Below are positions 4,166-60,363 of a stretch of 64,000 bases of DNA, in pieces. Source of the DNA: Hymenobacter siberiensis (lineage in GTDB: Bacteria; Bacteroidota; Bacteroidia; Cytophagales; Hymenobacteraceae); assembly GCF_018967845.1 (NCBI RefSeq), contig NZ_JAHLZZ010000001.1:2480001-2544000 (forward strand), given 5' to 3'. The position numbers were made by a program, and so were the translations under genes. Positions within the stretch are counted from its first letter, which is position 1. The number at the start of each line of letters is the position of its first letter. The notes beneath the pieces were generated by a model. The model worked only from the letters and a program-made list of their open reading frames with translations. It was not told where the DNA came from and ran no database searches.

Positions 4166-4254
4166 CGTCATGCAGCGCGCAGCGAAGTATCTTTACCGCA
4201 ACCGTAATTGATTGCATTGCGCGGTAAAGATGCTTCGCTGGGCTCTGCATGACG
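4166..4254. repeat. Palindrome, GCAGCGAAGC family
   Basis: Arms of 34 bases (4166-4199 and 4221-4254) pair with few mismatches around a 21-base loop. The arms contain CGTCATGCAG and AGCGAAG, shared with copies near 14.8, 36.2 and 60.3 kb. It occupies the spacer between the amidohydrolase and S9 peptidase genes. The rest of the spacer (4255-4385) shows only a degenerate half-copy near 4330-4350. Confidence 0.85.
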
Positions 4255-9604: not shown

Positions 9605-9750
9605 AGAACGGTCATGCTCATCTGGTGTCCGCGCAGCCGAAGCATCTCGCGTGCAGCAGTGAATCAATCGTTGGCTACGCCGACCTTCGGCTGAAAAGGG
9701 ATTAGTGGTGGCACGCGAGATGCTTCGGCTGCGCTCAGTATGACGTTCTT
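9605..9750. repeat. Nested palindrome, CGCGAGATGCTTCGGC family
   Basis: Between the divergent ATPase gene and the esterase gene. Outer arms (GAACGGTCATGC at left, GTATGACGTTCTT at right) and inner arms (AGCCGAAGCATCTCGCGTGC and its complement) pair over most of the length. Related copies lie at 25712-25808, 38218-38332 and 51347-51460. A 78-codon minus-strand frame here is a translation of the repeat, not a gene. Confidence 0.85.
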
Positions 9751-9864: not shown

Positions 9865-10551
9865 ATGAAATTCCTGCATTTGCCCTTCGCCGCCCTGCTT
9901 GGGCTGGCCCTCACCGCCTGCAACGCCGGCCCCACGGCCGAGCAGCCGGCTGCTTCAGCTACGCCGGTTGCCACTGCCCCGGCCGCAGCCAAAACGTCCA
10001 CCAAACGCCTGCTGTTCTTCGGCAACAGCCTCACCGCCGGCTACGGCGTAGAGCCTGAAGAAGCCTTCGCGGGCCTAATTGGCAATAAAATCGACTCCCT
10101 CAAACTCGGTTACGAAGTGATAAACGCCGGCCTGAGCGGCGAAACCACCGCCGGCGGCCGCAGCCGCGTGAGCTGGATTCTGAAACAGCCCGTCGACATA
10201 TTCGTGCTGGAGCTGGGCGGCAACGACGGCCTGCGCGGCCTGCCCCTCTCGGCCACCCGCGAAAACCTGCAAGGCATCATCGACACGGTGCGGCGGCGTA
10301 GCCCCGGCGCGCAAATTGTGCTGGCCGGCATGCAGATTCCGCCCAACATGGGCCAGTCCTACGCCAATGATTTCAAGGCTATTTATCAGGAAATTGCTGC
10401 CAAAAACCACCTCGTTCTCATTCCCTTCCTGCTCGAAGGCGTGGGCGGCGACCGTAGCCTGAACCAGGCCGACGGCATTCACCCCACGGCGGCCGGGCAC
10501 CGCATCGTAGCGCGCACAGTGTGGGCGGTGCTCCAGCCGCTGGTGCGGTGA
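9865..10551 (+). CDS. GDSL-family arylesterase/lysophospholipase, lipoprotein
   Basis: A 228-residue SGNH hydrolase of the TesA/arylesterase type, which cleaves acyl esters. The N-terminus is a lipoprotein signal with lipobox LTAC (Cys19), followed by an Ala/Pro/Thr linker to residue 45. Block I is FFGNSLTAGYG, with nucleophile Ser55 (GNSL in place of GDSL). Block III is GGNDGLRG. Block V is DGIHPTAAGH, with Asp203 and His206 completing the triad. ATG 9865 is preferred over a GTG 18 bases upstream because it gives a standard lipoprotein signal. The stop codon TGA is the first triplet of a palindrome. Confidence 0.92.
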   Translation: MKFLHLPFAALLGLALTACNAGPTAEQPAASATPVATAPAAAKTSTKRLLFFGNSLTAGYGVEPEEAFAGLIGNKIDSLKLGYEVINAGLSGETTAGGRSRVSWILKQPVDIFVLELGGNDGLRGLPLSATRENLQGIIDTVRRRSPGAQIVLAGMQIPPNMGQSYANDFKAIYQEIAAKNHLVLIPFLLEGVGGDRSLNQADGIHPTAAGHRIVARTVWAVLQPLVR

Positions 10552-10645
10552 GGTGTGAGATGGTGAAATGGTGAGGTTGATATGCAATTAGCGCGAGTGG
10601 TGCGGAAGAAACATCAACCTCACCACTTCACCATCTCACACCTCA
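10549..10645. repeat. Palindrome between convergent genes
   Basis: Arms of 33 bases (10549-10581 and 10613-10645), rich in GGTGAGG/GGTGAAA, enclose a 31-base loop. The first triplet is the esterase stop codon. This family is seen once in the window. It may act as a terminator for both convergent genes, although it lacks a T-run. Confidence 0.85.
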
Positions 10646-10648
10646 CTA

Positions 10649-14804: not shown

Positions 14805-14887
14805 GTTGTTTAGAAAGTCACAAAAGGTCCCCGAACGGTCATGCAGCGCGCAGCGAAGCATGACCGTTCGGGGACTTTCTAAACAGC
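14805..14887. repeat. Palindrome at the susD truncation point
   Basis: Outer arms GTTTAGAAAGTC at left and GACTTTCTAAAC at right enclose CCCCGAACGGTCATGC and its complement, around a GCAGCGAAGC core. The left arm has an unpaired ACAAAAGG not matched on the right. A copy with the same bulge is at 36185-36326. The right end lies six bases before the first ATG of the susD remnant. Confidence 0.9.
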
Positions 14888-23652: not shown

Positions 23653-23657
23653 AAGGA

Positions 23658-23757
23658 GTTAAAGGTTGAGAGTTAAAAGTTAAGAGTTGAAAATTGAGAA
23701 TTTTGAGGGAAGGTCCGATACCTAGGCGGTTTTAACTTTTAACTCTCAATTTTTAAC
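23658..23757. repeat. AT-rich palindrome, GAGTTAAAAGTTAA type
   Basis: Left arm (GTTAAAGGTTGAGAGTTAAA from 23658) and right arm (TTTTAACTCTCAATTTTTAA to 23757) pair imperfectly. It is composed of GAGTTAAAAGTTAA-like units and overlaps the TAA stop (23753-23755) of the DUF58 gene. Confidence 0.75.
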
Positions 23758-24625
23758 TATTCCCGCGCCGCCTTAGAAACTCCCGCATCGCCGCATCGAG
23801 TGGCTGCGAAGTATCCAGTAAATGATAGTCGAAGCCCTGCCGCCGGGCGTTTTGGGCCGTGTCGCGCAGCCAGTTTTGCAACTGCTGTTGGTAGGCTGTC
23901 CGTTGGGTAGCGGCGTCGATTTGCAGGGTTTGGCCGGTTTCTAAGTCGCGGAAAGTGACAGCGCCCTCGTAGTTGAATTTGAGTTCGTTGTGCGCCATTA
24001 GGTGCAGTAATAGTACGTCGCCGCTGGTGGCGCGCAGGCGGGTAAGCAAGGCATTGATTTCCTGGCCTTCCTCATACAAGTCGCTCACGCACACCGTGAG
24101 GGCGCGCTGGCGGCGGGCCGTGAGAGGAGCCAGCGTTTCGGGCGCGGGGAAGCGGCCGGCAGCTTCGGCCGTTTCGAGGGCGTGGTAGAGGCGGGGCAGC
24201 TGGCGGGCATCAGCGCGGGGCGCGAGGTGGCGCAGGCCGGCGGGACTGAGGATGCTCAGGCCCACGGCATCGCCTTGCTGCGTGGCGATGTAAGCGAGCG
24301 CGCCGAGCAGTAACCGGGCGTAGTCGAGCTTGCTGAGGCCGTTATCGTCGCGGTGGTTCATGCTGGCACTGGCGTCGAGCAGCAGGTGTACGGTCAGGCT
24401 GGTATCAATTTCCGACTCGCGCAGGTAGTAGCGGTCCGAGCGGGCGGCCAGGCGCCAGTCGAGGCGGCGCAGGTCGTCGCCGGGCTGGTAGGGGCGGTAC
24501 TGGTTGAACTCCATGCCCGCGCCGTGCCGCCGGCTGGCGTGCGCGCCGTTGAGGAAGCCCTCGGCCGCCTGCCGGGCGGCGAGGGAGAGGTTGCGCAGGC
24601 CGTGCAGGAGTTCGGGAGTGAGCAT
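23753..24625 (-). CDS. DUF58 domain protein of the MoxR cluster
   Basis: A 290-residue cytoplasmic protein with a DUF58 core: EFNQYRPYQPGDDLRRLDWRL followed by YYLRESEIDTSLTVHLLLDASASM, which is a von Willebrand-like strand with a DASAS metal site. Such proteins are the usual partners of MoxR ATPases, which precede them here on the same strand. The C-terminal LRRRGNS ends at a palindrome. ATG 24625 is chosen over an in-frame ATG at 24658 because the 11 extra residues would be read from the flanking palindrome. Role: an adaptor linking the ATPase to a membrane or metal-dependent target; the target is unknown. Confidence 0.9.
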   Translation of the reverse strand: MLTPELLHGLRNLSLAARQAAEGFLNGAHASRRHGAGMEFNQYRPYQPGDDLRRLDWRLAARSDRYYLRESEIDTSLTVHLLLDASASMNHRDDNGLSKLDYARLLLGALAYIATQQGDAVGLSILSPAGLRHLAPRADARQLPRLYHALETAEAAGRFPAPETLAPLTARRQRALTVCVSDLYEEGQEINALLTRLRATSGDVLLLHLMAHNELKFNYEGAVTFRDLETGQTLQIDAATQRTAYQQQLQNWLRDTAQNARRQGFDYHLLDTSQPLDAAMREFLRRRGNS

Positions 24626-24628
24626 GTA

Positions 24629-24698
24629 GTAGCGCGGGCTTTTAGTCCGCGAGTTCAACGATAAAAAAGTTATGGTACTCGCGGACTAAAAGCCCGCG

Positions 24699-24701
<3 letters not shown>
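24629..24701. repeat. Palindrome, GCGGACTTTTAGTCCGC family
   Basis: Arms TAGCGCGGGCTTTTAGTCCG at left and the complement at right, with a loop of about 22 bases. The right arm contains the TAG stop of the MoxR gene (24699-24701). The palindrome fills the whole MoxR-DUF58 spacer. Confidence 0.9.
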
Positions 24702-25676
<975 letters not shown>

Positions 25677-26523: not shown

Positions 26524-26627
26524 TGTAGCGTGGACTCTGCGAGTCCGCGAGCGAGCGTAGCGAGCATCCGGAACCCTTGTCCAATGCTCGCTACGCTCAC
26601 GCGCGGACTCGCAGAGTCCACGCTACA
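26524..26627. repeat. Nested palindrome, GTGGACTCGCAGAGTCCAC family
   Basis: Outer arms TGTAGCGTGGACTCTGCGAG and complement; inner arms GCGAGCGTAGCGAGCAT and complement; loop about 20 bases. It lies between the DUF4159 gene and TldE copy 1. Confidence 0.9.
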
Positions 26628-29783: not shown

Positions 29784-29865
29784 TGTAGCGCGGACTTTCA
29801 GTCCGCAAGTGAATGAAATAGAATTTAGGCAGCAGTTTACTCGCGGACTAAAAGTCCGCGCTACA
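29784..29865. repeat. Palindrome, GCGGACTTTTAGTCCGC family
   Basis: Arms TGTAGCGCGGACTTTCAGTC and complement, loop about 35 bases. It fills the space between the carboxypeptidase-regulatory-domain pseudogene and TldD copy 1. Confidence 0.9.
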
Positions 29866-31256: not shown

Positions 31257-32591
31257 TTATACTGCGTCCGACAGGCTCGTGAACGTGAAGTCCCGAATCT
31301 TGAGCGGCGGTACCAAATTCCCGTTTAACCGTACCGGCTTACCGATGGCTTCCAGGTTGTTGAGCATGATGACCGGGCTTTCGTTGAAGCGGAAGTTCTT
31401 GATGGGGAACTTGATTTGGCCGTTTTCGATGTAGAACGTGCCGTCGCGGGTGAGGCCGGTGAAGAGCAGCGTCTGCGGGTCGACGGGGCGGATGTACCAC
31501 AGGCGCGTCACCAGAATGCCCTTGGCGGTGCCTTTGATGAGGTCGGCGGTGCTTTGGGTGCCGCCTTCCATAATCCAGCCGTTGGGGCGGGGCAGGTCGG
31601 GGATGCCGGCTTTCTGGGCCCAGTAGCGCGAGGCGTACAGGTTTTTCACCACGCCCTTGTCAATCCAGGTGGTGCGCTGCAGCGGGCGGCCGTCGCCGCT
31701 GAACGTCAGGTCGCTGATTTCCGGGTTCAGCGGGTCGGAGTAGATGGTAACCCGTTCATCAAACAGCTTTTCGCCCTTGCGGTTGCCGCCGCCCTTCTTG
31801 CTGAGGAAGCTGCGGCCCTCGTCGGCGTTGCGGGCATCGAGGGCACCCATGAGCGCGCCGATGAGCGAGGTGTCCACGTTCGAGAGCAGGGCATTGGGCT
31901 CCATAATCACGGTGTACTTGCCCGGCTCAATGGCCCGTGCCTTCATGGAAGCAGCAGCTTTGTCGGCGGCCACTTTGGTGAAGCGGGCCGCGTCCATCTT
32001 GCTTGAGTCGATGTAATCGCCCGAGGCGTAGCCCGAGCCGGTGCCGTCGGGCGTGCGCACCGTCACCGAAAACGTCACGTTGGACGTGCGCTGGTAGGCC
32101 TCCAGGCCCTTGGAGTTGCGCTTGGCCACGAAGCCGTGCGAATCGTCGAGGAAGCCCGCCGAGCTCAGCTTTTTCTGGTCGCAGAGCGCCATGCTGGCCC
32201 CGATTTGCGCGGCCCGGTAGTCGGGGTCGATGGCGGCGGTGGCGGCGGCGTAGGAGCGGCTGCCATCCAGGTATGTCTGCGGCCCCAGCAGCGGCATGTA
32301 CTCCGGGCTCTCGGGGGCGAGGCGGGCAATTTCCTCGGCCCGCTGCACGCAGCGGCGCAGGGTGGCTTCGTCGAACTCGTTGCAGGTGGCTACGCCGGCG
32401 CGCTTGCCAAAGCGGCTTTCCACGGCCAGCGACACGTTATCGCTAGCCCCGGCCGTGCTGATGGAGTTGCGGGCCGAGCGCACGTTGCCGCTAATGTTGC
32501 CATTGAGCGTGGCATCGCACTCATCGGCGGTGCTGAAACTGAGGACCTTTTTTAGGATTGTCTGGGCTTCGTCTTTGGAGAGAATGGCCAT
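31257..32591 (-). CDS. TldE/PmbA-type subunit, copy 2
   Basis: A 444-residue TldE-type partner with no HExxxH motif and no signal peptide (MAILSKDEAQTILKK). It shares the family landmarks of copies 1 and 3: NVSLAVESRFGKRAG, LAPESPEYMPLLGPQTYL, KGLEAYQ, GKYTVIMEPNALL, SKKGGGNRKGEKLFDERVTIYSDP, FPIKNFRFNESPVIMLNNLEAIG and the ending KIRDFTFTSLSDAV. It is closer by eye to copy 3 than to copy 1, as expected if pairs 2 and 3 arose by the most recent duplication. A four-helix-bundle gene separates it from TldD copy 2 on the same strand. Transcription should stop at the terminator at 31167-31198. Confidence 0.9.
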   Translation of the reverse strand: MAILSKDEAQTILKKVLSFSTADECDATLNGNISGNVRSARNSISTAGASDNVSLAVESRFGKRAGVATCNEFDEATLRRCVQRAEEIARLAPESPEYMPLLGPQTYLDGSRSYAAATAAIDPDYRAAQIGASMALCDQKKLSSAGFLDDSHGFVAKRNSKGLEAYQRTSNVTFSVTVRTPDGTGSGYASGDYIDSSKMDAARFTKVAADKAAASMKARAIEPGKYTVIMEPNALLSNVDTSLIGALMGALDARNADEGRSFLSKKGGGNRKGEKLFDERVTIYSDPLNPEISDLTFSGDGRPLQRTTWIDKGVVKNLYASRYWAQKAGIPDLPRPNGWIMEGGTQSTADLIKGTAKGILVTRLWYIRPVDPQTLLFTGLTRDGTFYIENGQIKFPIKNFRFNESPVIMLNNLEAIGKPVRLNGNLVPPLKIRDFTFTSLSDAV

Positions 32592-32600
32592 GATGTTTTT

Positions 32601-32653
32601 AAATGTGGAGATGTGCAGAATGGGAGAATGTGGAAATGAAGGAATGTGGGAAT
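32601..32653. repeat. AATGTGG-type array, left side of the four-helix-bundle gene
   Basis: Iterated ATGTGGAG/AATGTGGAAATG/GAATGTGGGAA units between the TldE copy 2 start and the stop of the four-helix-bundle gene. Units in inverted orientation lie on the other side of that gene (33044-33078), and the same units flank 36185-36326 in the equivalent spacer of pair 3. Confidence 0.65.
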
Positions 32654-33043
32654 TCAGGCAGCGTTGGCTTTGCTGGAAATAATGATGCGGGCCAGTAGAC
32701 GTCGGACGCTCAATAATTTGTCGTTCAAGGGTATGGGAGGCGTTGGGTAATTGGGCGCGTGCGTGCAGAGATGGAGCCAGTAGTCGGTTTCTTCAGCTTC
32801 CTTCGCAGCAATCTTGCATTTGTGTACAAAGTCAGCACGGCTTTCAGCATGTTGCGCTTCGCGCACGTTGGCTCCGACTGAAGTGCCACACCGAAGCAGC
32901 TGGCGAACCACGACGTAGCGACGAGTTGCCTCCAACTCTTCCACATAAGCCAGTACTGCTAATACCAACTCAAAGGAGAGCCGCACAACCGGATTGTCGG
33001 CCTTGGAACCATTGCCAGTCGTACCTGAATCTGCTGCTACCAT
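32654..33043 (-). CDS. Four-helix-bundle protein (23S rRNA intervening-sequence type)
   Basis: A 129-residue member of the IVP/S23 four-helix-bundle family, first known from open frames inside 23S rRNA intervening sequences and related in fold to Avd of diversity-generating retroelements. The core matches well: NPVVRLSFELVLAVLAYVEEL, YVVVRQLLRCGTSVGANVRE, AQHAESRADFVHKCKIAAKE and AEETDYWLHL, then a final helix LLSVRRLLARIIISSK. A basic surface suits RNA or nucleic-acid binding. ATG 33043 is chosen; an upstream GTG at 33073 would translate the AATGTGG repeat. The gene lies inside the TldD2-TldE2 spacer, flanked by inverted AATGTGG arrays, and there is no rRNA here. No function has been shown for free-standing members. 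Confidence 0.88.
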   Translation of the reverse strand: MVAADSGTTGNGSKADNPVVRLSFELVLAVLAYVEELEATRRYVVVRQLLRCGTSVGANVREAQHAESRADFVHKCKIAAKEAEETDYWLHLCTHAPNYPTPPIPLNDKLLSVRRLLARIIISSKANAA

Positions 33044-33078
33044 CACATTTCCCACATCAATCACATTCCCCACATTTT
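33044..33078. repeat. AATGTGG-type array, right side of the four-helix-bundle gene
   Basis: On the minus strand it reads AATGTGGGGAATGTGATTG and GATGTGGGAAATGTG; it lies between the TldD copy 2 stop and the start of the four-helix-bundle gene and is inverted relative to 32601-32653. Confidence 0.65.
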
Positions 33079-34728
33079 CTAGATTTTCCGGGCCGTGTTA
33101 ATCACGTTCACGCCATTGAAGCGCGTGGTGGCCGAGCCGTGGCTCACGGCCGAGCTCTGCGAGGGCTGGCCCTTGCCGTCGTTGAAAGCGCCGAAGAAAC
33201 GGAAGTCACTTTCGTCGCATGAGCCAGCGCAGGAGTTCCAGAATTCCTGGGTGTTGGCCTGGTAGGCCACGTCTTCGAGCATCTCGGTGATTTTGCCTTT
33301 TTCGATGGCGTAGAACACCTGCCCGCCGAACTGGAAGTTGTAGCGCTGCTGGTCGATGGAGAACGAGCCGTTGCCGGCGATGTAGATGCCCTTATCGACC
33401 TTGCTCACCATTTCATCCACGCTCATTTTGGCTTTGCCGGGCTGCAGGCTCACGTTGGGCATGCGCTGGAACTGCACATCCTGCCACGACTGCGAGTAGC
33501 AGCAGCCGTCCGATTCCTTCTGGCCCACCATGTGCGCTTGGTCCCGGATTTTCTCGTAGTCCACCAGCGTACCGTCCTTGATGAGGTCCCAGCGCTTGGT
33601 TTTCACGCCTTCGTCGTCGTAGCCCACCGCGCCCAAGGTGTTGGGCGTCACCTTATCGGCCACAATGTTCACCACTTTCGAGCCGTAGGGAATGCCCTTG
33701 GCCTTCCACTCCAGGGTGGCAAACGAGGTTCCGGCGAAGTTAGCTTCGTAGCCCAGCACGCGGTCGAGCTCCAGCGGGTGGCCCACGCTTTCGTGGATGG
33801 TGAGGCCCAGGTGGTGCGGGTCGAGCACGAGGTCGTACTTGCCGGGCGTCACCGACTTACAGGTCAGCTTCTGCTTCACCTGCTTGGCGGCCAGGGCCAC
33901 GTCTTCCAGCATGTCGTAGCTGTACTTGTAGCCGATGATGTCGGAGCCGGTGGGGCCGGCCATTTTATCGGCGGCTTTGGGCGTGAGGTACTCGTAACCC
34001 ATGCCCACGGGCGAGCTCATGGCCTGGCGCGAGCGGAACTTGCCGCTGGCCCGGTCGATGGCCGTGACGCCGAACGTGGGGTAAATCCGGTGAATGTCCT
34101 GGTCGATGTAGGAGCCGTCGGTGCTGGCAAAATACTTCTGCTCGTTCACCTGAAACAGCACCGAGTTGATGAACGACACGCCCATATCCAGGGCTTTGGC
34201 GTTCACGCCCAGCAGCAAATCCACCTTGTCCTTGATGGGCACCTCAAACGCATTCTGCTGAATGGGCGCTTTCCAGCTCACCTCGCCGTAGCCCTGCTGC
34301 GGGGCCAGCTGCACCTTTTCCTTCTGCACCTTCGAGTTGGCCTTGGCAATCTGCACGGCCAGCTGGGCGGCTTTGGCAATGCCCGCCTCGGTCACGTTGT
34401 TGGTGGAGGCGAAGCCCCAGGTGCCGTTGGCAATCACGCGGATACCCACGCCGTAGCTCTCGGTGCTGGCAATGTTCTGCACCTGCTTTTCGCGGGTGAA
34501 GATGCCCTGGTTGAGGTAGCGGCCAATGCGTACGTCGGCGTAGCTGGCGCCGGCGGCTTTGGCGGCGTTCAGGCCGGCATCGGCGAGGCGCTTTTTCATG
34601 GCTACATCGGCGCCGGGCTCCAGCAGGCGGGCGGGGTCTACCAGCGAATGGCCGAAGCCGGGCAGGCTGGGCAGGAAAAGGGCGCCGGCGGCCAGGCCGG
34701 TTAGTCCTACAAAGTCACGTCTTTTCAT
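33079..34728 (-). CDS. TldD-type metalloprotease with Tat signal, copy 2
   Basis: A 549-residue TldD with the same layout as copies 1 and 3: Tat signal MKRRDFVGLTGLAAGALFLP, metal motif in LGLTIHESVGHPLELDRVLG and the Cys-containing NSCAGSCDESDFRFFG as the likely third metal ligand. No insertions or deletions relative to the other two copies, since all three have 549 residues. By eye it is much closer to copy 3 than to copy 1. It would form a protease with TldE copy 2 downstream, or with copy 3 upstream. It ends two codons before the AATGTGG array that precedes the four-helix-bundle gene. The substrate is unknown. Confidence 0.92.
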   Translation of the reverse strand: MKRRDFVGLTGLAAGALFLPSLPGFGHSLVDPARLLEPGADVAMKKRLADAGLNAAKAAGASYADVRIGRYLNQGIFTREKQVQNIASTESYGVGIRVIANGTWGFASTNNVTEAGIAKAAQLAVQIAKANSKVQKEKVQLAPQQGYGEVSWKAPIQQNAFEVPIKDKVDLLLGVNAKALDMGVSFINSVLFQVNEQKYFASTDGSYIDQDIHRIYPTFGVTAIDRASGKFRSRQAMSSPVGMGYEYLTPKAADKMAGPTGSDIIGYKYSYDMLEDVALAAKQVKQKLTCKSVTPGKYDLVLDPHHLGLTIHESVGHPLELDRVLGYEANFAGTSFATLEWKAKGIPYGSKVVNIVADKVTPNTLGAVGYDDEGVKTKRWDLIKDGTLVDYEKIRDQAHMVGQKESDGCCYSQSWQDVQFQRMPNVSLQPGKAKMSVDEMVSKVDKGIYIAGNGSFSIDQQRYNFQFGGQVFYAIEKGKITEMLEDVAYQANTQEFWNSCAGSCDESDFRFFGAFNDGKGQPSQSSAVSHGSATTRFNGVNVINTARKI

Positions 34729-34738
34729 AAGGTGAGAG

Positions 34739-34814
34739 TAGCGCGGACTTTTAGTCCGCGAGTGGTTTGCATGGAAAAAGTCACGTTTAATGCGCGGACT
34801 AAAAGTCCACGCTA
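34739..34814. repeat. Palindrome, GCGGACTTTTAGTCCGC family
   Basis: Arms TAGCGCGGACTTTTAGTCCG at left and complement at right, with a loop of about 35 bases. It fills the spacer between TldE copy 3 and TldD copy 2. Confidence 0.9.
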
Positions 34815-34819
34815 CAAGT

Positions 34820-36139
34820 CTACACCGCGTCCGACAGGCTGGTGAAGGTGAAGTCGCGGATTTTCATGGGTGGCACCAGGCTGCCGTTCAGGCGCACGGG
34901 CTTGCCCAGCGCCTCCAGGTTGTTGAGCATAATCACCGGGCTTTCGTTGAAGCGGAAATTTTTCACCGGGAATTTAATCTGCCCGTTTTCGATGTAGAAC
35001 GTCCCGTCGCGCGTCAGGCCGGTGTAGAGCAGCGTCTGCGGGTCGACGGCCCGGATGTAGTAGAGGCGCGTGACGAGAATGCCTTTGGCGGTGCCTTTGA
35101 TGAGGTCGGCGGTGCTTTGGGTGCCGCCTTCCATAATCCAGCCGCCGGGGGGCGGAATGTCGGGGATGCCGGCTTTCTGGGCCCAGAAGCGCGAGGTGTA
35201 GAGGTTTTTCACCACGCCTTTGTCTATCCACGTCACTTTCTGCTGCGGGCGGCCGTCGCCGCTGAAAGTCAGGTCGGGCACGTCGGGGTGGGTAGGGTCG
35301 GAGTAGATGGTCACCCGCTCGTCGAAGACCTTTTCGCCCTTCTTATTGCCGCCGCCCTTCTTGCTCAGGAAGCTGCGGCCTTCGTCGGCGTTACGGGCGT
35401 CCATGGCCCCCATCATGTTATTGAGCAGGTCGATGGCCGCGGCCGGCTCCAGAATCACGGTGTATTTGCCCGGCTCAATGGCCTTGGCATTCACCGACGA
35501 AGCCGCCTTGTCGGCCGCCACCCGCGTTAGGCGGGCCGCGTCGAACCGGGCCAAATCGGTGTAGTTGGCAATGGCGTAGCCCGAGCCGGTGCCATCGGGC
35601 GTGCGCACCGAAATCGAAAAGTCGACGCTGCTCACCGGTTGGTAAGCCTCCAGGCCCTTGGAGTTGCGCTTGGCCACGAAGCCCGACGAGTCATTAAAGA
35701 AGCCGGCTGAGCTAAGTTTCTTCTGGTCGCACAGGGCCATGCTGGCCCCAATCTGCTCGGCCCGGTAGTCGGGCGTGATGGCAGCCGTGCGCGCCGCAAA
35801 CGAGCCAGGCGAGGTCAGGTAGGTTTGCGGCCCGAGCAAGGGAACGTATTCCGGGCTCTCGGGCGCGAGGCGCGCAATTTCCTCGGCCCGCTGCACGCAG
35901 CGGCGCAGCGAGGCCTCATCAAACTCGTTGCAGGTAGCGGTGCCGCTGCGCTTGCCGAAGCGCGACTGCACGGCCAGCGACACGTTCTCGGCTGCGCCCG
36001 CCGTGCTGATGGAGTTGCGGGCCGAGCGCACGTTGCCGCCGCTGGTGCCCGTGAGGGTGGCCTCGCACTCGTCGGCGGTGCTGAAGCTGAGGACTTTTTT
36101 GAGGATGGTCTGGGCTTCGGATTGGGAGAGCAGGGCCAT
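34820..36139 (-). CDS. TldE/PmbA-type subunit, copy 3
   Basis: A 439-residue TldE-type protein without the metal motif or a signal peptide (MALLSQSEAQTILKK). Shared landmarks are NVSLAVQSRFGKRSG, LAPESPEYVPLLGPQTYL, YRAEQIGASMALCDQKKLS, GKYTVILEPAAAI, GGGNKKGEKVFDERVTIYSDP, WIDKGVVKNLYTSRFWAQ and the C-terminal KIRDFTFTSLSDAV. It is slightly shorter than copies 1 and 2, mainly in the segment after GKYTVILEP. It follows TldD copy 3 on the same strand, separated by a 313-base spacer that contains a nested palindrome. Confidence 0.9.
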   Translation of the reverse strand: MALLSQSEAQTILKKVLSFSTADECEATLTGTSGGNVRSARNSISTAGAAENVSLAVQSRFGKRSGTATCNEFDEASLRRCVQRAEEIARLAPESPEYVPLLGPQTYLTSPGSFAARTAAITPDYRAEQIGASMALCDQKKLSSAGFFNDSSGFVAKRNSKGLEAYQPVSSVDFSISVRTPDGTGSGYAIANYTDLARFDAARLTRVAADKAASSVNAKAIEPGKYTVILEPAAAIDLLNNMMGAMDARNADEGRSFLSKKGGGNKKGEKVFDERVTIYSDPTHPDVPDLTFSGDGRPQQKVTWIDKGVVKNLYTSRFWAQKAGIPDIPPPGGWIMEGGTQSTADLIKGTAKGILVTRLYYIRAVDPQTLLYTGLTRDGTFYIENGQIKFPVKNFRFNESPVIMLNNLEALGKPVRLNGSLVPPMKIRDFTFTSLSDAV

Positions 36140-36184
36140 GTTTTCAGATGTGAAAATGTGTTGAATGTGGAAATGGAATAGTGG

Positions 36185-36326
36185 AGTTATTTAGAAAGTC
36201 ACAAAAGGTCCTCAAACGGTCATGCAGAGCGCAGCATCTTACTCGCATCGTTGAACGGGCCTGACGATGCGAGCAAGATGCTTCGCTGCGCTCTGCATGA
36301 CCGTTCGGGGACTTTCTAAACAGCTT
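36185..36326. repeat. Nested palindrome, GTTTAGAAAGTC / GCAGCGAAGC family
   Basis: It fills most of the 313-base TldD3-TldE3 spacer. Outer arms match those of 14805-14887, including the unpaired ACAAAAGG on the left. Inner arms add CATCTTACTCGCATCG and complement. AATGTGG-type units stand outside it in opposite orientations (about 36148-36176 and 36411-36450), as around the four-helix-bundle gene. Confidence 0.9.
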
Positions 36327-36452
36327 CAGTGGGATGAAATTGAGAATGATGCATGAGATAGGAGCAAAGCGTGGCGGCTACGGCCGCTTACTTGTAGCGT
36401 CCTGAGCGGTCCATTTTCACATTCCCCACATTCAACACATTCCCCACATTAA

Positions 36453-38102
36453 TTAAATCTTGCGGGCCGTATTAATCACGTTCACGCCATTAAACCGCGT
36501 GGTGGCCGAGCCGTGGCTTACGGCCGACACCTGGCTGGGCTGGCCCTTGCCATCAAAGAAAGACCCGAACAGCCGGTAGTCGCTTTCGTCGCAAATGGCG
36601 GCGCAGGAGTTCCAGAATTCCTGGGTGTTGGCCTGATAGGCCACGTCTTCGAGCATCTCGGTGATTTTGCCTTTTTCGATGGCGTAGAACACCTGCCCAC
36701 CGAACTGGAAGTTGTAGCGTTGCTGGTCGATGGAGTAGGAGCCGCGCCCGGCAATGTACACGCCCTTGTCTACGTCCTTAATCAACTCGTCGACGCTCAT
36801 TTTGGCTTTGCCGGGCTGCAGGCTCACGTTGGGCATTCGCTGGAACTGAACCGAGTCCCAGGAGTCGGCGTAGCAGCAGCCGTCCGATTCCTTCTGGCCC
36901 ACGATGTGCGCCTGGTCCCGGATTTTCTCGTAGTCTACCAGCGTACCTTCTTTAATGAGGTCCCAGCGCTTGGTTTTCACGCCTTCATCGTCGTAGCCCA
37001 CTGCGCCCAGCGAGCCGGGCTGCAGCTTATCGGCCACAATGTTCACCAGCTTCGAGCCGTAGGGAATGCCCTTGGCCTTCCAGTCGAGGGTGGCGAAGCT
37101 GGTGCCCGCGTAGTTGGCCTCGTAACCCAGCACGCGGTCGAGCTCCAGCGGGTGGCCCACGCTCTCGTGGATGGTGAGGCCCAGGTGGTTGGGGTCGAGC
37201 ACGAGGTCGTACTTGCCCGGCGTTACCGACTTGGCGGTCAGCTTCTGCTTCACTTGCCGGGCGGCCAGGGCGGCATCTTCCAGCATGTCGTAGCTGTTGC
37301 GGTAGCCGATGAGGCCGGTGCCGCTGGCGCCCGCAATCTTATCGGCGGCCTTGGGCGTGAGGTACTCGTAGCCCATGCCCATGGGCGAGCTCAGGGCATC
37401 GCGGCTGCGAAACTTGCCACTGGCCCGGTCTACCCCCGAAACCGAAAACGTGGGCCAGATGCGGTGCACGTCTTGGTCGATGTAGGAGCCGTCGGTGCTG
37501 GCAAAATACTTCTGCTCGTTAATCTGAAACAGGGAGGAGTTGACGAAGCTGGCGCCGTTGTCGAGGGCCTTGGCGTTAGCGGCCAGCAGCAATTCAACTT
37601 TCTGCGCCACCGGCACTTCGAAGGCGTTTTGCTGGATGGGCGTTTTCCAGCTCACCTCGCCGTAGCCTTGCTGCGGGGCCAGCAACACCTTCTCTTTCTG
37701 CACCTTGGCGTTGGCCTTGGCGATGGCTACGGCCAGCTGGGCGGCTTTGGCCAGGCTGGCCTCGGTCACGACGTTGGTGGCCGCGAAGCCCCAGGTGCCG
37801 TTGGCAATCACGCGAATGCCCACGCCGTAGCTCTCAGTGCTGGCGATGTTCTGCACCTGCTTTTCGCGGGTGAAAATGCTTTGGTTGAGGTAGCGCCCGA
37901 TGCGCACATCGGCGTAGCTGGCGCCGGCGGCTTTGGCGGCGTTCAAGGCCGCATCAGCAAGGCGTTTTTTCTGGGTGAGGTCGAGGCCGGGCTCCAGCAG
38001 GTGGGCGGGGTCAACGAGGGTGCCGCCGAAGCTGGGAAAGCCGGGGAGGAATAGGGCCCCGGCAGCCAGGCCGGATAGTCCTACAAAGTCGCGTCGTTTC
38101 AA
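36453..38102 (-). CDS. TldD-type metalloprotease with Tat signal, copy 3
   Basis: A 549-residue TldD with Tat signal MKRRDFVGLSGLAAGALFLP, metal motif in LGLTIHESVGHPLELDRVLG and NSCAAICDESDYRLFG near the C-terminus. Here the second Cys of the other copies' CAGSC (three residues apart) is kept as CAAIC. It is the first gene of the unit that includes TldE3, TldD2, the four-helix-bundle gene and TldE2, which ends at the terminator at 31167-31198. A promoter should lie in 38103-38398 but I found no clear TAnnTTTG element; that 296-base spacer is occupied by two palindromes. Confidence 0.92.
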   Translation of the reverse strand: MKRRDFVGLSGLAAGALFLPGFPSFGGTLVDPAHLLEPGLDLTQKKRLADAALNAAKAAGASYADVRIGRYLNQSIFTREKQVQNIASTESYGVGIRVIANGTWGFAATNVVTEASLAKAAQLAVAIAKANAKVQKEKVLLAPQQGYGEVSWKTPIQQNAFEVPVAQKVELLLAANAKALDNGASFVNSSLFQINEQKYFASTDGSYIDQDVHRIWPTFSVSGVDRASGKFRSRDALSSPMGMGYEYLTPKAADKIAGASGTGLIGYRNSYDMLEDAALAARQVKQKLTAKSVTPGKYDLVLDPNHLGLTIHESVGHPLELDRVLGYEANYAGTSFATLDWKAKGIPYGSKLVNIVADKLQPGSLGAVGYDDEGVKTKRWDLIKEGTLVDYEKIRDQAHIVGQKESDGCCYADSWDSVQFQRMPNVSLQPGKAKMSVDELIKDVDKGVYIAGRGSYSIDQQRYNFQFGGQVFYAIEKGKITEMLEDVAYQANTQEFWNSCAAICDESDYRLFGSFFDGKGQPSQVSAVSHGSATTRFNGVNVINTARKI

Positions 38103-38217
38103 AAGAGGGTAAGCGTTTTAGTGATGCAGGAAGCAGATTCGTAAAGATGGGACGAAATCTTAATCAAATAGACATGCAGGAGCGCGCAACGTTGCGTTGC
38201 TGGCGAAGGAAAGATAG

Positions 38218-38332
38218 AACGTCATGCCGAGCGCAGCCGAGGCATCTCGCGTGCCATAGTAACTCAATCGGGAGAACGGTCTTGATTACTGCTGCACGCG
38301 TTATGCCTCGGCTGCGCTCGGCATAACGTTCT
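38218..38332. repeat. Nested palindrome, CGCGAGATGCTTCGGC family
   Basis: Outer arms GAACGTCATGCCGAGCGCAG and complement, inner arms GAGGCATCTCGCGTGC and near complement GCACGCGTTATGCCTC. It lies in the divergent spacer between TldD copy 3 and the molybdoenzyme gene. Confidence 0.9.
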
Positions 38333-51346: not shown

Positions 51347-51460
51347 AGAACGTCATGTCGAGCGTAGCCGAGACATCTCGCGTGGGGTAGTAATCAAATC
51401 GTTGAAAAAGGAGTAGTGGCGGCACGCGAGATGCTTCGACTGCGCTCAGCATGACGTTCT
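51347..51460. repeat. Nested palindrome, CGCGAGATGCTTCGGC family
   Basis: Outer arms AGAACGTCATGTCGAGCG and near complement; inner arms GAGACATCTCGCGTG and CACGCGAGATGCTTC. It fills the spacer between adaptor and pump of RND system 2. Confidence 0.88.
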
Positions 51461-52443: not shown

Positions 52444-52473
52444 TGTAGCGTGGACTCGCAGAGTCCACGCTAC
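52444..52473. repeat. Palindrome, GTGGACTCGCAGAGTCCAC family
   Basis: TGTAGCGTGGACTC and complement form a 13-bp-plus stem with a short loop between adaptor and outer-membrane factor of system 2. It abuts the TAG stop (52473-52475), giving tandem TAG TAG on the minus strand. Confidence 0.88.
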
Positions 52474-60324: not shown

Positions 60325-60363
60325 AAGACCGTCATGCAGAGCGCAGCGAAGCATGACGGTCTT
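60325..60363. repeat. Short palindrome, GCAGCGAAGC family
   Basis: AAGACCGTCATGC (60325-60337) pairs with GCATGACGGTCTT (60351-60363) around AGAGCGCAGCGAA, 35 bases before the cyclase-family start. It is a minimal form of the family at 4166, 14805 and 36185. Confidence 0.88.

Follow-up and report, generated by a model that had tools for sequence, protein, structure and literature searches.

What is a gene of the IVP (S23) family doing between two ordinary protein genes, and do the repeats on either side belong to it? Passages of PMC4990558 describe a 23S rRNA intervening sequence (IVS) of Coxiella that carries an S23/IVP reading frame and has a 28-bp stem cleaved by RNase III in vitro; rRNA IVSs with an IVP frame are termed selfish elements there, and the function of the protein is given as not known. 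Two scenarios may account for a copy that stands alone. First, gene and repeats could form one small element. Alternatively, the gene could have dropped into repeat hairpins that arise independently of the protein.

The TldD2-TldE2 spacer and its facing arrays

The window, by which we mean the whole 64-kb stretch of Hymenobacter siberiensis DNA under analysis, encodes in its TldD2-TldE2 spacer a 129-residue protein (Table 1) that an earlier note had assigned to the 23S rRNA intervening-sequence family. Profile searches bear this out, both with Pfam PF05635 (E 2.1e-19, 70.1 bits against a cut-off of 33.8), which is the sole Pfam match in the protein, and with TIGR02436 (E 4.1e-21, 75.2 bits against a cut-off of 24). 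The nearest solved relative by sequence is PDB 2rld (E 3.4e-19); 2gsc (XCC0516), a family member that forms a homopentameric ring according to parts of PMC4990558, follows at E 0.15. The frame runs from an ATG at 33043 to a stop at 32654, and an alternative GTG-started frame opens at 33073. Between 28000 and 40000, every Rfam family stays below its gathering score, and the gene therefore lies outside any rRNA, as had been claimed; rather than a 23S rRNA helix, protein genes adjoin it on both sides. The names of these and other neighbors (TldD, TldE, thiolase, MFS/HlyD pump, acetyltransferase, DegT) are readings of their translations only.

Table 1. Features of the window, with positions counted from its first nucleotide
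Feature	Position	Strand	Remarks
IVP / four-helix-bundle gene, 129 aa	32654..33043	-	PF05635, TIGR02436
5' (upstream) array arm of the IVP gene	33044..33078	-	AATGTGG/GATGTG units running into the IVP start codon; abuts TldD2 stop
3' (downstream) array arm of the IVP gene	32597..32653	+	AATGTGG/GATGTG units in opposite orientation; from IVP stop to just before TldE2 start
TldD2 gene	33079..34728	-	upstream of the unit
TldE2 gene	31257..32591	-	downstream of the unit
5' array arm, TldD3-TldE3 spacer	36418..36450	-	AATGTGG-type; no gene
3' array arm, TldD3-TldE3 spacer	36147..36177	+	AATGTGG-type
REP-like palindrome	36205..36315	.	nested between the TldD3-TldE3 arms
Gene-less array hairpin, GTGAGGTGTGAGATGG units	10548..10646	.	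resembles L003 arms (score 20.0; p 0.15, GTGAGGTGTGAGATGG-type units being common in the genus)
Gene-less array hairpin, AGTTAAA units	23657..23758	.	weak likeness to L001 arms (10.5, p 0.17)
REP/REPIN-like palindromes, GTCATGCAGAGCGCAGCGAAGCATC and variants	4166-4254, 9631-9734, 14824-14878, 36205-36315		recurrent in spacers
Further GTCATGCAGAGCGCAGCGAAGCATC-type REP/REPIN-like palindromes	38216-38332, 51347-51460, 60325-60363		
Second palindrome family, GTAGCGCGGACT...AGTCCGCG	24629-24702, 29784-29865, 34738-34815, 52445-52473, 26524-26627		

The bare 7-mer AATGTGG is not enriched across the window (8 found versus 6.1 expected), and simple enrichment was dropped as a signal for lack of significance in favor of RATGTG clustering. 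Scanned on both strands, the 64 kb contain only four 60-nt stretches with at least three RATGTG, lying within 32573-32669 (+), 33008-33112 (-), 36110-36206 (+) and 36382-36486 (-); these are the two arms of each spacer, TldD2-TldE2 and TldD3-TldE3, on alternating strands, so that the facing AATGTGG-type arrays reported around the IVP gene stand out by this measure. TRF reports a tandem repeat at 32601-32653, within the 3' arm, and a repeat finder set to 12-nt repeats returned no inverted pair at 32000-33700. We also scored arms as the best local alignment between the 250 nt upstream of a gene and the reverse complement of the 250 nt downstream. The window locus scores a low 9.5, inside the background, and its same-species ortholog 15.5; the locus is thus an inverted-arm bracket by unit count, not by alignment score.

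The TldD3-TldE3 spacer has the same outer arrays and a nested palindrome, as described in the earlier note, but its further proposal that the palindrome has replaced the gene is not established. REP/REPIN-like palindromes recur in the spacers of the window, which also holds a second palindrome family (Table 1). The source genome as a whole has three PF05635 genes, each between facing arrays with a unit of its own, namely AGTTAAG (L001), AATGTGG (L002, the window gene) and GTGAGGTGTGAGATGG (L003).

Bracketing of IVP genes across genomes

We collected IVP loci from Hymenobacter-like genomes, other Bacteroidota, other phyla and plasmids, mostly as best-scoring matches rather than as a random sample, and called a locus bracketed at an arm score of at least 14. 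After 11 duplicate IVP genes and two loci with frames of more than 300 codons (L036, L353) were left out, 200 of the 260 distinct loci are bracketed by inverted arms, a strong enrichment of the kind that the earlier note had proposed to test for, and the remaining 60 show no arm match at this threshold. Both arms are 7-8-nt periodic arrays in 173 of the 200 bracketed loci, and G outnumbers C in the 5' arm of 163 of the 173. As controls, none of 30 glyoxalase genes is bracketed, and GIY-YIG genes are bracketed in 15 of 30 cases, none of them periodic. Not used in the comparison of these controls with 28 loci from the phylum of a Syntrophobacterales MAG (below) were L370, an IVP locus, as well as three GIY-YIG loci whose flanks are short.

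In the genus Hymenobacter, to which two named loci that have both flanks in common with a site in these genomes point, 50 of 61 genomes have IVP matches, one to seven each and 130 in total, several of them broken by stops or frameshifts. Ninety-three loci, mostly the better-scoring ones, were taken for these matches, and 92 remained once L036, whose frame runs on, was dropped. Their median arm score is 20.25, versus 9.0 for mispaired arms and 9.5 in direct orientation; 119 neighboring ORFs have a median of 9.0 and a 95th percentile of 12.1, which 82 of the 92 IVP loci exceed. In the phylum, which the named loci identify as Bacteroidota, 116 of the 148 genomes sampled carry IVP genes, the richest of them 16 copies, and the 30 best loci listed have a median of 15, versus 9 mispaired and 10 in direct orientation.

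The pattern extends to many phyla. Out of at least 586 confirmed loci, 80 named ones were kept, and these have a median of 16.5, versus 8.5 mispaired and 9.0 in direct orientation, and 66 control ORFs of this set give 9.5 with a 95th percentile of 13.25. High scores outside Bacteroidota come from Planctomycetales (25), Acidobacteriota (32.5), Ruminococcus (27.5), Akkermansia (23) and Nitrospirae (16.5), low ones in the same set from an alphaproteobacterial MAG (9.0) and SAR324 (9.5). Thirty loci from 14 genomes outside Bacteroidota, about ten of which repeat loci of the 80, reach 19.5 versus 8.5 mispaired. An IVP gene is present in 62 of 99 genomes from the phylum to which a Syntrophobacterales MAG belongs, and 28 loci there score 17.75 versus 8.5 mispaired. 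Eleven loci from 30 plasmid records (ten cyanobacterial, one from Azospirillum) range from 10.0 to 31.5, versus 9.0. On two of the cyanobacterial plasmids (L234, L236), array-adjoining IVP genes lie within CRISPR-cas runs, the neighbors being cas6 and cas4 in one case and cas10 and a cmr3-family gene in the other.

Approached from the arrays, a blind scan returned seven long-gap periodic arrays without a previously known IVP gene, and four of the seven contained one. Units differ between loci, yet the two arms of one locus match. There is no shared terminal repeat sequence, unlike in MITEs or IS elements, as the units vary by locus and mispaired arms fall to background. Overall, free-standing IVP genes usually sit between two mirror-image 7-8-nt arrays.

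The GIY-YIG genes form a case of their own. The 15 of 30 small Bacteroidota loci (L382-L411, with L407 from the source genome itself) that have inverted repeats carry non-periodic ones, often REP-like, of the GTCATTCTGAGCG...GTCGAAG type, and this is a second gene-palindrome partnership, distinct from that of IVP.

Arrays with and without the gene

If IVP genes were hitchhikers dropping into the loops of array hairpins that arise without the protein, related genes at unrelated sites should have no reason to share an array unit. We took sites as unrelated when no flanking proteins were similar within the stretches compared. At such sites, array likeness is found in 43% of 98 IVP pairs at 60% identity or more, versus 1-2% below 40%. 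A stricter comparison, restricted to the 5' arm of one locus against the 3' arm of the other and excluding shared leaders, is passed by 14 of 19 pairs at 70% identity or more, versus 1% below 40%, and by 34% of the 98 pairs at 60% or more (permutation p 2e-4). The opposite-orientation control is also raised (4 of 19; pairs share loci), and part of the excess therefore comes from arms that hold both orientations. Arrays thus seem to travel with the IVP gene, which fits the mobile or mobilizable palindrome of the earlier note; a casual, unsystematic look noticed neither recent identical copies at two sites nor target-site duplications.

Orthologous spacers include sites with neither gene nor arrays, the empty sites that the note had proposed to look for. 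TldE follows TldD in 25 of 30 genomes, and the 25 spacers, sorted by eye, comprise 4 with an IVP gene and AATGTGG-type arrays, 4 with an AGCTGTT hairpin, 7 with other palindromes and 10 bare ones. The AGCTGTT hairpins are gene-less and near-perfect, the bare spacers measure 3-47 nt, and the direction of change among these states is unrooted. Two TldD-TldE spacers (L205 in genome G029, L229 in genome G012) retain the arrays around the same IVP gene split over two frames, and the gene therefore seems dispensable there. Much the same spread of states is seen at the acetyltransferase-DegT spacer of 30 genomes, where an IVP gene is confined to the two same-species genomes.

Taking the IVP-less spacers of both sites together, 7-8-nt arrays are present in 19 of 39 from IVP-bearing genomes versus 0 of 10 from IVP-less ones (p 0.004, kinship ignored). 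This comparison leaves out six IVP-holding spacers and five TldD loci without TldE next, and its ten spacers from IVP-less genomes represent nine genomes; among the 19 array spacers, L207 and L208 seem to carry a different repeat that is rich in C, and scoring both as array-free gives 17 of 39 versus 0 of 10. Random stretches agree weakly: without IVP they yielded no array hairpin over 280 kb and three over 480 kb, and with IVP five over 360 kb (two being IVP units), three over 104 kb and seven over 400 kb. By eye, 2 of 3 calls in IVP-less Hymenobacter-like stretches and 2-3 of 7 in IVP-bearing ones are not heptads, and we therefore take the raw contrast in hairpin density as no more than supportive. 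One array hairpin (L297) does lie in an IVP-less genome.

The hitchhiker scenario draws on the gene-less array hairpins that are common in spacers, on the TldD3-TldE3 spacer with its arrays and no gene, and on a comparison of hairpins with the IVP arms of their own genomes. Fifty-six gene-less hairpins resemble an own-genome IVP arm above chance (paired p 0.004), but 46 of them have no such match at p<=0.05; with just 10 of 56 clearly sharing a unit, they argue weakly for action in trans. Against it stand the shared units of related IVPs at unrelated sites, which have cost this scenario its place as the leading rival, and the sampled IVP-less genomes, with no array spacers and few array hairpins. 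We regard it as unlikely.

How the arms behave where the gene stays in place can be read at orthologous sites, where we compared each arm with its own partner and with partners swapped between orthologs. Own partners score higher at the MFS/HlyD site (13 loci, 20 versus 10.5), the thiolase site (9 loci, 16 versus 11.25) and a third site (6 loci, 22.75 versus 9.25). The contrast is weak at the TldD-TldE site (15 versus 11.75) and at one 8-locus site (12.75 versus 10.5), and it is reversed at one 3-locus site (21.5 versus 23.0). Since close orthologs have units in common, no more than 24 of 58 rows put the own partner first within its site; ranking the true partner among all loci, where it came out best for 36 of 92, was likewise set aside as uninformative, since unit-sharing loci compete. 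At orthologous sites, then, both arms have often turned over together. In the IVP tree, which rests on few columns and has many weak forks, most genes group by site with few relocations, and the change of units therefore looks like turnover in place rather than repeated insertion. The protein itself is under purifying selection: dN/dS has a median of 0.07 and a range of 0.03-0.46 in 18 IVP pairs from 7 sites, many at high dS. Genes with stops or run-on frames were left out of both the tree and the dN/dS estimates.

A candidate element, its arms and its relatives

Matched arms could also be kept for the sake of RNA, with RNase III cleaving a stem in the transcript and so releasing the IVP message from the operons of the host, on the model of the 23S rRNA IVS. 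The covariation of arms at orthologous sites would agree with this, as would the RNase III-cut stem of the Coxiella IVS and the position of the window gene, which is co-directional with both TldD2 and TldE2. However, arm mismatches in three sets show no excess of G-U over A-C (86 versus 74, 88 versus 96, 10 versus 9), the unit in the window folds as RNA in an ordinary way (z -0.84), and the IVP gene of L003 is antisense to both of its neighbors. Polarity tells the same way. Periodic inverted repeats are G-rich first in 142 cases versus 10, and those with gaps of at most 130 nt in 44 versus 5, whereas non-periodic inverted repeats lack such a polarity (195 versus 271). As gene-less hairpins share the polarity, it points to generation at the DNA level, and the missing wobble signature likewise favors DNA-level renewal of the arms, by slippage and copying between them. 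We therefore dropped the RNA stem as a hypothesis and hold it to be quite improbable; an action of the protein on an RNA stem of its own, which the earlier note had raised as a possibility, finds no support in the fold, the mismatches or the polarity. Least probable of all is a neutral by-product, in which a replication error makes 7-nt slippage repeats or palindromes in some lineages and IVP genes merely persist there: parts of PMC4692102 ascribe heptad over-representation in bacteria to polymerase slippage, and units do turn over between species, but the 30 glyoxalase genes all lack such brackets, the G polarity is near-fixed, and unit and gene are related together at unrelated sites.

Gene and repeats thus look like one overlooked small element, probably mobile. 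On balance we favor, without great confidence, an account in which a small palindromic element with sequence-free arms has the free-standing IVP gene as its coding portion, and in which the protein would recognize the hairpin or its periodicity and help to spread the arrays. Such an element would consist of a G-rich 7-8-nt array, a short leader, the IVP gene and the same array inverted, and would relocate as a unit. Its arms may be renewed at the DNA level by repeat slippage and by the copying of one arm into the other via a hairpin or cruciform. By analogy with RAYT/REPIN and Avd, the protein may recognize a hairpin or the 7-nt periodicity instead of a sequence and, together with a host polymerase, recombinase or reverse transcriptase, could help array hairpins to be copied or to spread, both in cis and in trans. 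Its action is the least certain part of the explanation: we infer that it moves or shapes the arrays, and we know of no catalytic function for an IVP protein.

One close parallel is the REPIN/RAYT system, in which the gene of a REP-associated tyrosine transposase is flanked by inverted repeats and gene-less palindromes occur in the same genome. Likewise, a dispersed gene-less unit matches the arms of an IVP gene in some cases. In contrast, the IVP unit has no tyrosine (HUH) transposase, its protein consisting only of the PF05635 four-helix bundle, and it has no fixed REP motif, both arms changing together. The arrays, their IVP genes and the gene-less hairpins would thus likely make up a dispersed element that resembles REPIN-RAYT but has sequence-free ends, and that was later inherited in place. 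Another possible relative is Avd, which partners a reverse transcriptase. Passages of PMC10053308 regard this accessory protein of diversity-generating retroelements as a homolog of the PF05635 four-helix bundle. The rRNA IVS shares with our loci the same protein family between inverted ends. Our loci differ from it in lying outside rRNA, in ordinary spacers and in up to 16 copies per genome, and in having as arms degenerate 7-8-nt arrays whose sequence is arbitrary and specific to the locus, and in which an RNA-level signature was not found.

Heptad repeats as such have been described before. TAACTGA repeats occur in Beggiatoaceae, Cyanobacteria and Bacteroidetes (MacGregor 2015, PMC4679880); as far as the portions of that article at hand go, they resemble ours as intergenic heptad arrays with an overlapping host range, often near start codons, but are discussed there as direct repeats for which a role in translation is suggested. 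Its main text has none of the terms 'IVP', 'S23', 'four helix' and 'intervening'. Xanthomonas GGGAATC heptads form pairs of convergent arrays close together, 70 in Xcc and 75 in Xac (Rehm 2015, PMC4692102), and are read in the corresponding passages as G-quadruplex repeats, unlike here; 'S23' and 'helix bundle' are absent from the main text. As a check on unseen cases, we looked for three GGGAATC-type units in 398 genomes that share their phylum with an alphaproteobacterial MAG. Three genomes match, two of which have one IVP gene each, both inside such heptads as facing GGGATTC/GGGAATC arms; the third has no IVP match. Heptamer arrays and rRNA IVSs were thus already known, and the excerpt of PMC10910872 names IVP only in a figure legend. 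Among the matches listed from the open-licence PMC literature searched, as far as their excerpts go, no report links free-standing IVP genes to facing heptad arrays.

A bolder version of our favored account, which we put forward as tentative and rather doubtful, is a new class of mobile element whose ends would be set by 7-nt periodicity and G-rich-first hairpin polarity rather than by sequence, with an IVP/Avd-like protein recognizing and copying any such array. That protein would generate its own arms as well as the heptad hairpins of the genome, the known TAACTGA and GGGAATC repeats perhaps among them, and slippage or reverse transcription may be a step in the process. To our knowledge, such arms are unlike the ends of known transposons. 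Free sequence combined with fixed periodicity and polarity, and arms kept matched through turnover, suggests a structure-recognizing or templated mechanism.

For the widespread PF05635 family, these results provide a concrete and testable genomic context. They may tie IVP to heptamer arrays separately reported in Cyanobacteria, Bacteroidetes, Beggiatoaceae and Xanthomonas, and they offer a way to think about the long-standing puzzle of rRNA intervening sequences.
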